Below, one piece after another: positions 53,333 through 64,000 of a DNA stretch of 64,000 nt (position 1 is its first letter; every line of letters begins with the position of its first letter). Made by a program: the position numbers and the translations under genes. Source of the DNA: a bacterium. Its GTDB lineage: Bacteria > Zhuqueibacterota > Zhuqueibacteria > Residuimicrobiales > Oceaniaggregativiventaceae. The stretch is taken from NCBI GenBank assembly GCA_029565675.1, contig JAKQNP010000032.1:124001-188000 (forward strand), given 5' to 3'. Under the pieces are notes generated by a model. It had not been told where the DNA came from, did no database searches, and was given only the letters and a program-made list of their open reading frames with translations.

Positions 53333-54457
53333 TTAAAAACCAAAAGTATAGACTTGGCGGAAGGTCGCGTTGCCCATCTCGGTATCGATCTGTCCAAAAT
53401 CGTCCCACCGGCTGACACGCGACAGGATGCAGCGTTCGACGCTCTCGCTCTTGAGTGTGGACGAAATGATGTGAGGATTAATCACTTTTCCTTCAGGGGT
53501 TATAGTAAATCGGACGACCACTTTTCCTTTAAGATTTGGAAAACGCTTGAGTTCCCGTTCATAGCAATATTGAATCGCGGCGCTGTGGGCGTAGACAATC
53601 GATGAGACCTCGTTGATGTCGCGTCCGGCCAAACGACCGCCAGAGGGTTGAATTTCTTGCCCTTCGTCGCTCAACGGCGCCAAAGGCGATACGTCAAAGT
53701 CAGATGTCCTGGTAAAAGCTGCGGTTTCAGCGCTGCCAAGGCCGGTAACCACTCCATCCAGACTGCCACCTTCGGTTCTCCGCCCGCTGGTAATCGCTTG
53801 ACGTCCCATTCCACCGCTGCCCGATGTACCCTCGGCGCTGCCCCCACCACCAGAAGTCGCTTGCCCTCTGGAAGCGAGTCGATCCATATTGCGCATGGCT
53901 TTGTCATAGTCCTGTTCAGCGACTCCGCCTTGGCCGAGAACATCTTGTAGCGTTCCATCGACCCGATCGCCGCTGGGGCTGGTGAGAATTCCCAACAGTC
54001 CCTGGTTGGCAACATTGGGATCACCCGCCGTTGAAGTACCACCGCCAGTTCCAACCCCTCTGCTGGCTGTACCAGAACCACCTGGACCACTGGCGCTGCT
54101 CGCTGCAGTGGAGCCGTCGCCTTTTGGCGGCAGTATGGAAGATGACGGTGCGGTTCTCGACGTGCCGCTGGAAGGAACAAAGCTTTCGAGCTCTTTCTGG
54201 ACGGCCTGCGGCAATGTCAACATGTTGCCGATAAAGTCAGAAGGAGTCGTTTCAAGCACAGCTTCGGCATAGTCTGCCTGAACGCGCTTGATCGCCTCCT
54301 TGTCTACAGAGCTGGCGGCAGGCAGAGGGTTAAAGACAAAATAGAGCACCGTCGCGAAATGCATAAAAAAGGAAATCGCTAAAATAATCAGAAACGTCCG
54401 ATCCAGATCTTCAAACGGCCGCTTCTTAAATTCAGGTGATAGGGCAAAAGCAGAAAT
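53333..54457 (-). CDS. TonB-like trans-envelope protein with AgmX/PglI-type C-terminal domain
   Basis: 374 aa if started at ATT 54457. 'EFKKRPFEDLDRT' is cytoplasmic, one membrane helix (21-43) follows, then a long Gly/Ser/Thr-rich linker (about 90-230) that can cross the periplasm, and a C-terminal domain (274-374) with 'HSAAIQYCYERELKRFPNLK', 'VVVRFTITPEGKVINPHI' and 'VERCILSRVSRW'. The two Cys (298, 343) and the 'F-T-I-x-P-x-G-x-V' pattern are typical of AgmX/PglI (GltJ/GltG) tails, which take the place of TonB in energised envelope machines. It lies downstream of the ExbB and both ExbD genes. The proposed ATT start rests on the ribosome site described separately; a GTG at 54490 is the alternative and would add 11 residues. 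Confidence 0.82.
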   Translation of the reverse strand: MSAFALSPEFKKRPFEDLDRTFLIILAISFFMHFATVLYFVFNPLPAASSVDKEAIKRVQADYAEAVLETTPSDFIGNMLTLPQAVQKELESFVPSSGTSRTAPSSSILPPKGDGSTAASSASGPGGSGTASRGVGTGGGTSTAGDPNVANQGLLGILTSPSGDRVDGTLQDVLGQGGVAEQDYDKAMRNMDRLASRGQATSGGGGSAEGTSGSGGMGRQAITSGRRTEGGSLDGVVTGLGSAETAAFTRTSDFDVSPLAPLSDEGQEIQPSGGRLAGRDINEVSSIVYAHSAAIQYCYERELKRFPNLKGKVVVRFTITPEGKVINPHIISSTLKSESVERCILSRVSRWDDFGQIDTEMGNATFRQVYTFGF

Positions 54458-54468
54458 AGTACACCTCC
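54455..54468 (-). promoter_or_regulatory. ribosome-binding site pointing to an ATT start codon
   Basis: On the minus strand, GGAGGT (54468-54463) is followed after 5 bases by ATT (54457-54455). No ATG, GTG or TTG lies at that distance. The upstream GTG (54490) has its only purine run touching the start codon, too close to work well. Confidence 0.5.
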
Positions 54469-54587
54469 GTACCAAGCACTTGTAAATCACTCCTGCCTGC
54501 GTCGTTCGAGTTGAGTCTCATGAGTTTGAGATGGCGCATGAATGACGAAGGCAACACAATCCCTTGTTCTGGGCCTCGCAGCCTAAC

Positions 54588-55082
54588 TCAGGCCTCCTTT
54601 TGGTAGACGACCAATCTCATGTTGGGATATTCGGAACGACCACAAGTTGCCATAACCTTGATCAAGGTTCGAAAAGGAAGCTCTTTATCGCCCTGGATGG
54701 TGACTTTGCCCGAAAACTTGACTCCATACATCTCTTCCATCCGTCGAGATTCAGAAGCATAGCGCTGCAATTCTCTACTCAAAGGCTCGATGATCAAGCC
54801 TGGTTGCTGCACCACTTCACTGACGTTGGCAACCGGTTGGTTGTTGACCATGATCCATTCCTTTGAGACCACTACATCCAAGGCGATTTCCGGAGGATTT
54901 TTAACCGTCGACGAGGGCAGAGTCAAATTTTGTGAAGGCTGAATGAGTTGTCCTTCAGTCGAATAGGTTTTGAGCATGAAGACCAGGATAATTGTAAACA
55001 TGTCCATCATCGAGGTCAAATTGAGACTCACGCCTCTGGGGCTGGTGTCGTGCTTTTTTATTCGTGACGGTATGAATGCCAT
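54588..55082 (-). CDS. ExbD/TolR-family proton-channel protein (Asp present)
   Basis: 164 aa. A short cytoplasmic start, one transmembrane helix with the proton-carrying Asp27 ('LNLTSMMDMFTIILVFMLKT', 20-39), then a periplasmic domain (55-164) with 'VTIQGDKELPFRTLIKVMAT', where the last strand-helix unit matches the ExbD/TolR dimer fold. With ExbB it converts proton flow into movement of the TonB-like partner. It is the second of two ExbD genes; the first, 28 bp upstream, lacks the Asp. The TonB-like gene follows after about 130 bp. Confidence 0.9.
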   Translation of the reverse strand: MAFIPSRIKKHDTSPRGVSLNLTSMMDMFTIILVFMLKTYSTEGQLIQPSQNLTLPSSTVKNPPEIALDVVVSKEWIMVNNQPVANVSEVVQQPGLIIEPLSRELQRYASESRRMEEMYGVKFSGKVTIQGDKELPFRTLIKVMATCGRSEYPNMRLVVYQKEA

Positions 55083-55110: not shown

Positions 55111-55647
55111 TTACAATATCCCGGCGCTGATCGATACCTCGGGAAAAAGCTCATGGTCGATATCATCGATTTTGAACGAGCGTGCTGCATCCATCGCGCT
55201 CACCAGAATCTGGTAGCCTATATCGCCTTCTGCTTGCATGATAATTCGTTTGGTGTCCAGCGGACCGCCGGCAATTTTGGTCTTGATATCGACCAGCATC
55301 TCGTTTAACCGGCTAAAGTTATAACTGCCATCCTCGTTCTTGGGAATGGTCGGTCCCCCGGAAACGGGATTGTGCAAAATTGCCTGCGCGCTCGACAGAT
55401 AGATCCCTTCTGAAGTGATCGTGACCGTCAAGTCGATGTTCTGTCGCGATTCTTTGGGCAATTGCATTCCAGCGGTCGCGCCTCCAGCCGCTTGCGGCAA
55501 GTTCAGCTCGATGATGCCGATCTGAATTGCAGTAGCGGTCGACAGAAGCAACGGAATCAGCACCACCATCAAGTTCATCATTGGAAACATATTGATTTCA
55601 ACAGGTTGAGGGGTGTGACTGCTGCGTTTGGAAGGTTGATAGGCCAT
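55111..55647 (-). CDS. ExbD/TolR-like protein with the channel Asp replaced by Asn
   Basis: 178 aa from the ATG at 55647; a TTG at 55653 overlapping the exbB stop is an alternative and would add two residues. The helix reads 'VEINMFPMMNLMVVLIPLLL' (17-36). The family motif N-x-x-P-x-x-D is present except that the last position is Asn25 (codon AAC), not Asp. The Asp is needed for proton flow in ExbD and TolR, so this subunit alone should not conduct. The periplasmic part (about 60-178) has 'PLDTKRIIMQAEGDIGYQIL' and 'VSAMDAARSFKIDDID', as in ExbD. A mixed dimer with the Asp-containing paralogue is the simplest idea. It directly follows exbB. Confidence 0.88.
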   Translation of the reverse strand: MAYQPSKRSSHTPQPVEINMFPMMNLMVVLIPLLLSTATAIQIGIIELNLPQAAGGATAGMQLPKESRQNIDLTVTITSEGIYLSSAQAILHNPVSGGPTIPKNEDGSYNFSRLNEMLVDIKTKIAGGPLDTKRIIMQAEGDIGYQILVSAMDAARSFKIDDIDHELFPEVSISAGIL

Positions 55648-55649
55648 AC

Positions 55650-56303
55650 TCAACGATTCCCGGTCAGAAGGTTGATCAATTTAACCGAATGCTCATCAAT
55701 TTCATCGATGATTTTTTTTGTCCTGCTCTGCAGGTAACTATAGAAAAGCGTAGAAGGTACAGCGATCAGTAAACCCGCCAGAGTCGTATTCATGGCAGTT
55801 GAAATACCTGCGGCCAAAAGCCTTGCTTTTTCAGTCGGGTCGATGCCAGGAGCAGAAACAGCGCGAAAAGCGAGAATCAGGCCATAAATCGTGCCCATCA
55901 GACCGATTAAAGTTGCCACATTGGCCAGCATGGCGAGATAATGGGTGCGCTGTTCAAGCTTGGGTATGACTTCCAGCATTCCCTCATCGACCGAGTTTTG
56001 GATCGTGCGGAAATCGGCATCAGAGTCCTTTTTCACCACTGCGCGCAAACCAGAGCCGATCACTTTGGGCAAAGCCCGATCACCAGCGCTCTGACAAAGC
56101 TCAAGGGCATCAGAGGCCTTGTTCGCCTTGATCAGTTTGTGTATCTCTTGCATAAATTTGCTGGCATTGATATCGCTTTTAATCAATATGTAGATAAATC
56201 GTTCCACGGCAATGGCAACGGCAAAAACGGCAGGAATGAGCAAGATCCACATAAACTGCCAACCTGCAACATCTGGACTGAAATTTCTCAAGAGTTCCGA
56301 CAT
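55650..56303 (-). CDS. ExbB/TolQ/MotA-family proton-channel protein
   Basis: 217 aa with three transmembrane segments (about 15-38, 118-145, 160-190). 'LAMLANVATLIGLMGTIYGL' and 'AGISTAMNTTLAGLLIAVPS' are the conserved pore-lining stretches. ExbB-type pentamers surround the ExbD dimer to form the stator. It is a TolQ-like member with a normal cytoplasmic loop between helices 1 and 2. AGGGAGGT lies upstream of the ATG. Its stop overlaps or abuts the start of the first ExbD gene. The protein partners are the two ExbD proteins and the TonB-like protein. Confidence 0.92.
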   Translation of the reverse strand: MSELLRNFSPDVAGWQFMWILLIPAVFAVAIAVERFIYILIKSDINASKFMQEIHKLIKANKASDALELCQSAGDRALPKVIGSGLRAVVKKDSDADFRTIQNSVDEGMLEVIPKLEQRTHYLAMLANVATLIGLMGTIYGLILAFRAVSAPGIDPTEKARLLAAGISTAMNTTLAGLLIAVPSTLFYSYLQSRTKKIIDEIDEHSVKLINLLTGNR

Positions 56304-56495: not shown

Positions 56496-56855
56496 TTATT
56501 TGTCCTCTTTAGCAAGAAGTTTTTTGAGTTTTTTGATTCGTTTGCCCCCTTCCAGCTCTTGCCCATAATCCAAAACCGTTTCAGGCTTTTGGCGCATTTC
56601 ATTAAGAAAGGAACGGCGTTCCAACGGTAATGTCCCGACTGCGGTTTCCGCTCTTTTGGGCACAAAGGTGACACTGGGCTTTTCGATGATCGCCTCGATA
56701 TTAATCGTCTGCAACACTTGTTCATCGTATTCGCTGGACCGCGAAACAGCGGAGATCACCGCCGGCACGGTTTGAGCAGTATCCGGCGGCGCCGTTTGTT
56801 GTGCCCATATGGCGCCAAACATGAGACAGATTAGTAGAACACTCTGTTTTGGCAC
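56496..56855 (-). CDS. small exported protein of unknown family in the ExbB/ExbD locus
   Basis: 119 aa. GTG start with AAAAGGAG 7 bp upstream. The leader (1-18, ending 'FGAIWAQ') predicts a periplasmic location. Residues 20-55 are Thr/Ala/Ser-rich; 60-95 hold 'PSVTFVPKRAETAVGTLPLE' and 'RRSFLNEMRQKPETVLDYGQ', and the end is a Lys/Leu-rich helix ('GGKRIKKLKKLLAKED'). I do not recognise a family. Its place, 21 bp after the 1524-residue TPR gene and before exbB, suggests it is an undescribed part of the same envelope machine, perhaps a link between TPR scaffold and stator (inference). Confidence 0.75.
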   Translation of the reverse strand: MPKQSVLLICLMFGAIWAQQTAPPDTAQTVPAVISAVSRSSEYDEQVLQTINIEAIIEKPSVTFVPKRAETAVGTLPLERRSFLNEMRQKPETVLDYGQELEGGKRIKKLKKLLAKEDK

Positions 56856-61545: not shown

Positions 61546-64000
61546 TCAGCGTTCGATCAATTCGCGAAGACGGCCTTCCCAGTCCTCTTCCTCTCTCTCC
61601 CGAATATCGAAATACTGTTTATCGAAATATGTCTGTTTTTCTTGTTGTTCGAGAGCAATCTTTCTGGCAAGCCACAGCTGTTGCAGGGCCTCGACCTCGG
61701 CCTCAAAAATCTGCAATCGGTCTTCGATCGCTTGTTTTCGCGCGCGATAGATGTTCTCGATGGTCTGGATTTGGCCGGTATAGTTGGTGATTTGATCGAG
61801 TTTTTCCTTGCGCGTTTGATAGATGATATCTGCGATTTCGAAACCGGAAAAATCGCTCCAGCGATCCAAATCAGACGCCGGAGCGTCTGGCACAGCCTGA
61901 GTCATCCATTTGCGAAATGCGCTCAAGCGGTCCTGCAGACGGACCAGATCTTTTTCCAGCAATTCCAAATCGACCCGAGCGGAAAAGTCTACTTTGCTGG
62001 TTGCTTGTGTCTGTAAAATTTCTATTTCATCGAAATGAATCTCGAGACGTCGTTTTTCCAGCTCCAGATCGCGATAGGTTGAGGCCAAGTTTTCCCGCCT
62101 ATACGCCATGCTTCCTTCCTTGGCGACCAACGGAAAATCGACCAGATAAGCCGTATTGACAACATCTTGATCGGCTTGAAAAGTCTCCAGAACCCGGATC
62201 AAACGAGCGCGTTGTTGCATGGCCTTGGCGGTAATATCGGGGCGGTTCTCCTTCTCAGCCCATTCGAGAATCTCATCGACTTGATCGATGTGGCGCAAAA
62301 GATCCATTCGCTCATCAAAATAATCTTGCAGAAGCAGATTGCCGGTATCGCTTTTTTCCTGTACTTGCAGCAGAAATTCGTTTAACTCACCGCGAACATT
62401 CGAGATGGCAGCGAAGAGATCCTCGCGTCGGGTTTCCAGAGCGTCTTTTTCGAGCTGTCCAAGTTCGCGAATCTGCTCAAGAGCGCCCATGCGTTCGCGG
62501 TCGAAATCCTGTTGCACATCGAGGTGATGGCGTGCACGAACCACATAGCGATATGCGTGCAGGGCGGCATCCGGTTGACCGAGAAGACGCTGACAGTGGG
62601 CAGACATGACCAGCGCTTCATAGGTAAAATTGGAGGCCAGATAATTTCGCAAAAGCGCGTGACTCTTTTCGATGGTTCGGTCATAATCGCCTTGCTCAAG
62701 AGCGATCCACGCCTGCCCCAGCAAGGCTTTGTCCAGGCCCTGATAGCCCTGTGAGACGGCGTCAAAAGCGCTTTGCGCTTTGTAGAACTCACCGTTTTGG
62801 TAATGGATCATTCCCAAGCGAACCAGCGCCGTGTTGCGAATATAGGCGGTGTTCAGGTTCGTCCACGGATAATTGACTTTGTCGCTGAGCATCTCGAGTA
62901 TTGGCACAGCTGATGCAAGCTCATCCAAATTAAGATGGACCACACTGAGCAGGAGTTGGGCCGGCGGGTAGAATTCGCTGCCCGGTCCGATGAGCTGCAG
63001 GATTTCACGCGCACGGTGAAACTGGGCGCTGTCAAAATGGCGGTTCGCCGCCAGATAATGGGCATAGTCGATCAATTGAGGGGTAGCAACCGAATCGATT
63101 GCCAAAAAGCGATCATAATAATTCATAAAATCTAAAGTGCCTTCAAAATCGTTTGCATATTGCATCAATCTGACCAACGATTCGGCGTGATAGATCGACG
63201 GTTGTGGATCATTCAGCACCTGCAGGTAATAATATCGTGCTCCGTCGAGGGCCTGTCGATGATAACGCGCTTCAGCAATATAGTAATTGAGAGAAGTAAA
63301 AAAATCATCCCGTTTGGGCCATGTTTCCATGACATCGAGAAGCTGATATTCGGCGGTCAAATAAAATCCATCGGCATAGTTGAGCATCGCGCTTTTGACG
63401 TGATCGGCAAAAATTCGCTCGCTTTCCGTGGTGTTGCCGGCGGCCAGCAGCTTTTTTCGAATCGCCTGATACTCAGCCAAACGGGTTAAAACGTCAACCA
63501 TTCTCTCATCTTTCCAACTATCGATATAGGTGGAAAGAGTGGGATAAAAGGTGCGGTCATATCCTGAGCGTGATAAAAGATCAAAAACCGATCCATCCAG
63601 CTGGGTCATGAGCCGCTGCTTGATCTGAATCAACTCATTCTCGGGATTGACTTCACCAGGCGGCAGGGTTTTATCGATGTTGCCGACGACCCGTTGGATC
63701 TTTTCTGTCTCGATTTGATAGCGGATATAATCTTCTTCGTTCAGAGGTCCGAGCCCACCCCAGGAACTGAACACACGAACGAGGGCGGCTTGTTGCTCAG
63801 CAATCTGTTGCAGCGCCGCTGCATTGTTGTCAGCTCGAGCCTGGACTTTGAGGAATTCCAACGTGTCGTACATGCCAAGCAGAGTGTCGAGCTCGGCGGT
63901 ATAATCGTCGACCATTCCGCCCACACGCTCAGGCGAATAGATTCCTTTTTTATAAATTTTGCGATCATCGATCGACGCTTTAATGTTATCCCGGGTATCG
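61546..64000 (-). CDS. large TPR/coiled-coil protein, N-terminus beyond the window edge
   Basis: 818 codons are visible and the frame stays open to base 64000, with 'DNIKASIDDRKIYKKGIYSP' read before the apparent GTG at 63924, so the real start lies outside. TPR-like helical pairs fill the first 450 visible residues ('YYIAEARYHRQALDGARYYY', 'AYIRNTALVRLGMIHYQNGE'). The rest is coiled coil, ending in a strongly charged helix ('EREEEDWEGRLRELIER'). It is on the same strand as, and 94 bp upstream of, the 1524-residue TPR gene. It probably belongs to the same scaffold. It is not recognised as a specific family beyond TPR. Confidence 0.8.
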   Translation of the reverse strand, partial: DTRDNIKASIDDRKIYKKGIYSPERVGGMVDDYTAELDTLLGMYDTLEFLKVQARADNNAAALQQIAEQQAALVRVFSSWGGLGPLNEEDYIRYQIETEKIQRVVGNIDKTLPPGEVNPENELIQIKQRLMTQLDGSVFDLLSRSGYDRTFYPTLSTYIDSWKDERMVDVLTRLAEYQAIRKKLLAAGNTTESERIFADHVKSAMLNYADGFYLTAEYQLLDVMETWPKRDDFFTSLNYYIAEARYHRQALDGARYYYLQVLNDPQPSIYHAESLVRLMQYANDFEGTLDFMNYYDRFLAIDSVATPQLIDYAHYLAANRHFDSAQFHRAREILQLIGPGSEFYPPAQLLLSVVHLNLDELASAVPILEMLSDKVNYPWTNLNTAYIRNTALVRLGMIHYQNGEFYKAQSAFDAVSQGYQGLDKALLGQAWIALEQGDYDRTIEKSHALLRNYLASNFTYEALVMSAHCQRLLGQPDAALHAYRYVVRARHHLDVQQDFDRERMGALEQIRELGQLEKDALETRREDLFAAISNVRGELNEFLLQVQEKSDTGNLLLQDYFDERMDLLRHIDQVDEILEWAEKENRPDITAKAMQQRARLIRVLETFQADQDVVNTAYLVDFPLVAKEGSMAYRRENLASTYRDLELEKRRLEIHFDEIEILQTQATSKVDFSARVDLELLEKDLVRLQDRLSAFRKWMTQAVPDAPASDLDRWSDFSGFEIADIIYQTRKEKLDQITNYTGQIQTIENIYRARKQAIEDRLQIFEAEVEALQQLWLARKIALEQQEKQTYFDKQYFDIREREEEDWEGRLRELIER

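Follow-up and report, generated by a model that had tools for sequence, protein, structure and literature searches.

The membrane aspartate in the N-terminal helix is the functional hallmark of the ExbD/TolR family (PF02472). The locus described here raises the question of how an ExbD without this residue can stand directly beside an ExbD that has it, and what kind of motor such a pair would build. Both genes belong to one tight run on the minus strand of a 64,000-nucleotide stretch of bacterial DNA (hereafter, the window), in which two TPR proteins and a small protein precede ExbB, the two ExbDs and a TonB/GltG-like transducer (Table 1). The spacing between exbB and the first exbD is 2 bases.

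Table 1. Genes of the ExbB-ExbD run in the window, in order of transcription.
Feature	Coordinates	Strand	Remarks
TPR protein, 792 aa as read	61546..63924	-	Pfam TPR_6 30.4 bits; same gene run
Long TPR protein, 1524 aa	56877..61451	-	Pfam TPR_6 71.1 bits; same gene run
Small protein, no known family	56496..56855	-	Upstream of exbB; no Pfam/NCBIfam match
ExbB/TolQ/AglR-like ring subunit	55650..56303	-	Thr138 and Thr174 kept; canonical ExbB Glu replaced by Thr169
First ExbD, acid-less	55111..55647	-	Asn25, codon at 55573-55575; Pfam ExbD 47.9 bits
Second ExbD	54588..55082	-	Asp27, codon at 55002-55004; Lys 11 residues after Asp; 48.8 bits
TonB/GltG-like transducer, AgmX/PglI C-terminal domain	53333..54490	-	NF033768 83.6 bits, cut-off 40

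Two of the accompanying genes deserve a remark. The small gene of a paralogous operon in the same genome (L004, 265-705) resembles that of the window: it also precedes exbB, has no NCBIfam match, and its product shares the stretch EKPxxxFxxP...RSF. This small protein is possibly the extra gene, left unnamed, that Luciano et al. 2011 mention for the core complex. In addition, the 1524-aa TPR protein weakly matches an alpha-L-rhamnosidase model near its C-terminus (22.3 bits, residues 1335-1380), perhaps a carbohydrate-binding fold.

The first ExbD is an open frame running from 55647 down to 55111. An alternative TTG start lies at 55653; the ATG at 55647 is favoured because almost all relatives share its methionine (M3 of alignment A2). 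Counted from this ATG, residue 25 is an asparagine, encoded by AAC (gtt on the plus strand). Both ExbDs pass the Pfam ExbD/TolR cut-off of 25.4, and a profile of the first-type family puts the Asn opposite the Asp of the solved ExbD/TolR chains 7ajq, 6tyi and 9ddm. The hallmark Asp is absent from the first ExbD and present in the second, where its codon is GAC (gtc on the plus strand). Codon reading and profile alignment confirm the Asn that the original prediction had placed at the position of the essential Asp, and the codon of the neighbour confirms Asp27. The neighbour departs from the motif N-x-x-P-x-x-D in one place, having a Ser for the Pro (NLTSMMD).

The same genome has 8 ExbD genes in total. 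A paralogous operon on another contig (C46, 154 kb) carries ExbB, ExbD(Asn) and ExbD(Asp) in that order, and the remaining four ExbDs all have the Asp, including a separate tandem pair on contig C56. Loss of the Asp is therefore tied to this operon type and not to tandem ExbDs generally. Ordinary ExbDs of other genomes have the Asp in all 17 read. The nearest named record to the second ExbD is a metagenome-assembled genome of candidate division KSB1 (88 percent identity), and a match to the first ExbD was found in 57 of 60 genomes comprising its own and relatives. In the KSB1-class relatives and the genome itself, the first-type ExbD has Asn in 91/91 cases and the second-type ExbD has Asp in 90/90; two places with a second operon (G032:C18 and G051:C184) were left out of the loci read from the 60-genome search. 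These uniform residues, together with the second Asn/Asp operon on C46, rule out a sequencing error, a local mutation or chance.

How far does the pair extend beyond this class? An alignment of the second ExbD served as query, on named genomes and then on whole phyla, so that loci were not picked by their Asn. At E 0.001, matches were obtained in 77 of 80 genomes of a Fibrobacterota-like phylum (that of G060), in 4 of 64 Latescibacterota (the phylum of G064; strong in 2), and in 28 of 198 genomes of a deltaproteobacterial phylum (that of G067; 14 strong by hand count from the listing). The phylum-wide matches were read in part, as 30 loci given by the tool and 54 stretches chosen by us. Altogether, 333 loci yielded 226 distinct second-type ExbDs, distinct meaning different over the last 120 residues, each scoring 80 bits or more with the second-type profile. 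The Asp is present in 226/226 of them, the profile having been made from Asp-bearing sequences and its score threshold carrying no Asp requirement.

The residue of the first-type partner could be read in 220 distinct operons, which span KSB1, Fibrobacterota with Raymondbacteria, Latescibacterota and the one deltaproteobacterial phylum (group labels here and below follow our own locus lists). It is Asn in 186, Gly in 15, Ser in 11, Cys in 4, Ala in 3 and Asp in 1; for L287 (Gly) and L238 (Asn) it was read by eye. Outside these 220 stand L156, L167, L305 and L325, which lie at contig edges, L177, whose partner is cut before the residue, and L327, in which no ExbD was found upstream of the second-type ExbD. 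The local mutation that would have undone the original prediction is not seen, since orthologues lack the Asp and the position is non-acidic in 219/220. The absence of the essential Asp is the one point in favour of a duplicate in decay that lost it neutrally, or of a local mutation or assembly error. The other invariant positions of the chain are kept, however, and the Asn is constant throughout the class. This conservation refutes such an explanation, whose probability is practically negligible.

Three loci whose records are titled Actinomycetota, Bacteroidota and Bacteroidetes (L101, L120 and L126) hold KSB1-typical operons, their second ExbDs showing 59-75 percent identity; the titles are probably wrong. 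Plasmids searched with ExbB as query yielded distant ExbBs only, at 26-32 percent identity among the matches listed.

We then asked whether an acid elsewhere in the pore could stand in for the missing one. Among 177 distinct first-type sequences, the helix contains no acid from position -5 to +13 relative to the neutral residue, except for L221 at position 0, which rules out an acid shifted within this helix. A Glu occurs at +14, at the outer end, in 38/177, and a Pro at +7, mid membrane helix, in 173/177. In the second-type helix, the Asp is the sole acid from -7 to +10 (222 sequences). A Lys or Arg at +11 (191/221) and a Ser in place of the usual Pro at -3 (211/222) look like marks of the second-type chain. 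Because Gly, Ala, Ser and Cys occupy the same place as Asn in the first type, a post-translational conversion of Asn to Asp is argued against, and the occurrence of Gly and Ala suggests that neutrality, rather than the amide, is what is kept.

On the ring side, both Thr of ExbB are kept in 226/226. The place equivalent to Glu176 of E. coli ExbB, the canonical channel glutamate, is non-acidic in 220/226. The six ExbBs with Glu are those of L158, which looks like an ordinary ExbB, of L221, and of operons L206, L320, L322 and L323. An Asp is found in a column after the second helix in 43/226. An acid supplied by ExbB is ruled out: most of these ExbBs lack the canonical Glu, and a scan of the two pore helices found no common replacement. 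With one of each ExbD in the ring, the membrane core of most such motors would contain just one carboxylate. As to the periplasmic part, a model of the first-type domain resembles ExbD: its best PDB match in Foldseek was 8pek, an ExbD periplasmic domain (E 1.9e-3, probability 1.00), although no match reached E 0.001.

Trees were used to place the two chains relative to ordinary ExbDs. A 66-row tree built with the careful method has three groups, one each for first-type, second-type and ordinary ExbDs (support 98/90, 98/90 and 99/96), and the acid state changes once on it. A quick tree of 133 rows agrees, the first and second types each being one clade (91 and 92). According to these trees, a single ancient duplication gave rise to the two ExbDs. 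The first lost its membrane Asp once and has been neutral ever since, and the second kept it. L221 is the sole operon with Asp in both chains, and its ExbB has the Glu too; the single-acid state is hence not universal. It branches at the base of both groups, with a second chain on a long branch whose exact place is less sure than the grouping itself. Its basal position and its full set of acids are as expected of the ancestral state.

The two ExbDs occur side by side. A second-type ExbD adjoins 190 of 192 distinct first-type ExbDs, and the remaining two lie at contig ends; the pair co-occurs, as the original prediction needed. Loci were mostly found via the second ExbD, so that lone first-type genes would be under-seen; none was present in the loci read from searches that used the first type as query. 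This constancy bears on the idea of two interchangeable rings, in which the Asp homodimer is active and an acid-less homodimer or mixed dimer acts as a brake or dominant-negative form according to expression level. Single substitutions lend it some plausibility: ExbD D25N is called inactive (in the available text of PMC11658791), and in M. xanthus the D28N form of AglQ reportedly loses both proton conductance and motility (likewise for PMC3858216), which means that the Asp of at least one chain matters there; the AglQ result also counts in favour of the heterodimeric axle proposed below. Yet a tight gene run with the two genes as neighbours in nearly every operon suits fixed ratios rather than tuned ones, and a poison permanently kept across phyla is unlikely. 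We regard such rings as very improbable.

Natural gene fusions carry the argument further. In 18 distinct operons, 16 in Fibrobacterota-Raymondbacteria and 2 in the phylum of G067, a full ExbB and the acid-less ExbD are the N-terminal and C-terminal halves of one protein. The three fusions tested score 83-88 bits with Pfam MotA_ExbB and 29-42 bits with Pfam ExbD, and the residue in the fused ExbD is Asn in 13, Gly in 3 and Ser in 2. A separate ExbB lies upstream of the fusion in all 12 operons with enough sequence, the other six being cut. ExbB ends and ExbD begins in the cytoplasm, and the topology of the fusion fits. In a single-chain model (mean pLDDT 73.9, pTM 0.48), a long ExbB helix (154-211) is followed by a linker of about 27 residues and a separate ExbD helix (239-262). 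Following the 5:2 rule, the simplest arrangement would be four free ExbBs, one fused ExbB and one Asp-bearing ExbD. The fusion is the strongest sign, though an indirect one, favouring 1:1 co-assembly of both ExbDs in one ring.

The separate ExbBs of fusion operons (L139 1869-2636, L140 1893-2666 and L148 1868-2644) have a conserved C-terminal extension, THKYHI...GVGxHVTHNNIKIFTDNKLxKEI, which is absent from the fused ExbB.

The fusions also bear on a reading in which the two ExbDs form separate homodimers. There, the Asp pair would drive the motor in the ExbB ring, and the acid-less ExbD would be an accessory outside that pore, such as a peptidoglycan anchor, a transducer clamp or an assembly factor. 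The divergence of the ExbDs into separate clades is compatible with this, and an accessory could tolerate Asn, Gly, Ser, Cys or Ala as the acid-less chain does. On the other hand, that chain has a full pore-type helix with the +7 Pro and an uncharged core, and the 18 operons in which it is joined to a whole ExbB, next to another ExbB, place it at a ring. Separate homodimers are in our view unlikely.

Overall, the window holds the operon of an AglRQS-like proton motor. Its axle is probably a heterodimer of both ExbDs inside a single ExbB pentamer, with one proton site. In such a 5:1:1 complex, proton binding and release would fall to the second chain alone, which would come past every one of the five ring subunits once in each turn. 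About 5 protons would thus be used per turn in 72-degree repeats, versus ten and 36 degrees. The neutral chain, whether it has Asn, Ser, Gly, Cys or Ala, would be a constant partner resembling a protonated one and would allow the axle to move past the ring; its periplasmic domain may have a special task, such as anchoring or holding the transducer. The asymmetric stator of the original prediction, with one conducting and one non-conducting ExbD, gains support from the conservation of the Asn, the co-occurrence and the fusion; the physical heterodimer, the 5:1:1 stoichiometry and the split of conduction are inferred. "Non-conducting" is not the sole reading of the first chain either: as the Asn of MotB D22N is said to mimic protonation (available text of PMC9389320), this chain may be a permanently "protonated" partner. 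Several points count against the heterodimeric axle, among them the under-seeing of lone first-type genes noted above. The ring-to-axle fusion would need a swivel if the axle turns endlessly. L206, L320, L322 and L323, plus L221, keep the ExbB Glu, and L221 has Asp in both chains. The experimentally studied relative in M. xanthus may differ, both of its chains reportedly having the Asp, and five ions per turn would call for a new model (see below).

AglRQS-Glt of M. xanthus is among the closest known systems. One ExbB-like and two ExbD-like genes are adjacent in it (Luciano et al. 2011, PMC3169522, as far as its available text goes), and it has a GltG-like transducer with an AgmX/PglI C-terminal domain (NF033768) as well as TPR proteins. 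That study already lists a member from Fibrobacteres. The window transducer does not reach the GltG equivalog (NF033760, 69.8 bits vs 650). Unlike the pair described here, whose first ExbD lacks the Asp except in L221, AglQ and AglS of M. xanthus are both reported to have it (in the available text of PMC9389320), and the available text of Luciano et al. 2011 mentions no ExbB::ExbD fusion. AglRQS-Glt is a gliding motor in M. xanthus; the window system is not known to drive gliding. A heterologous axle pair in one ring is also predicted for TolQ-like rings with paired transpore-helix vWA proteins (Mol Biol Evol 2025, PMC12204202, available text); both of those chains have the Asp, and their periplasmic domains are different.

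The ExbB-ExbD (Ton) and TolQ-TolR motors share the Pfam families and, by profile, aligned pore positions with the window proteins. Their axle, however, is a homodimer with two Asp (5:2), and the ExbB Glu is mostly lost here. The window proteins stay below the cut-offs of the NCBIfam equivalogs for ExbD, TolR, ExbB and TolQ; ExbD scores 27 against TIGR02804 (cut-off 123.45) and 24.9 against TIGR02801 (cut-off 127.3). The MotA-MotB flagellar stator works on the same five-to-two proton motor principle, with a ring that has no channel Glu, like most rings here. It differs in its identical MotB chains, each with an Asp.

The kind of motor, AglRQS-like with two ExbD-like chains, was already known (PMC3169522, available text). 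In the literature searched, whose scope leaves the key 2011 AglRQS papers outside, we found neither a pair in which one chain has consistently lost the acid nor an ExbB::ExbD fusion. The chances are about even that these operons define half-sited proton motors as a widespread class, with a ring of five or, in some Fibrobacterota and deltaproteobacterial genomes, of four plus one fused, a heterodimeric axle, one ionisable carboxylate in the entire membrane core, about 5 protons per turn and a symmetry lost once with no regain seen. In the turnstile model of 5:2 motors, two equal sites alternate in 36-degree steps and ten ions pass per turn; "an entirely new model" is said to be required for a 5:2 motor with five ions per turn, and it is stated as not known if AglQ pairs with AglS or each with itself (all from the available text of PMC9389320). 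A natural family in which one site is kept makes both the number of ions per turn and the choice between hetero- and homodimer directly testable, and the natural fusion of ring and axle is a ready-made construct to fix the stoichiometry.
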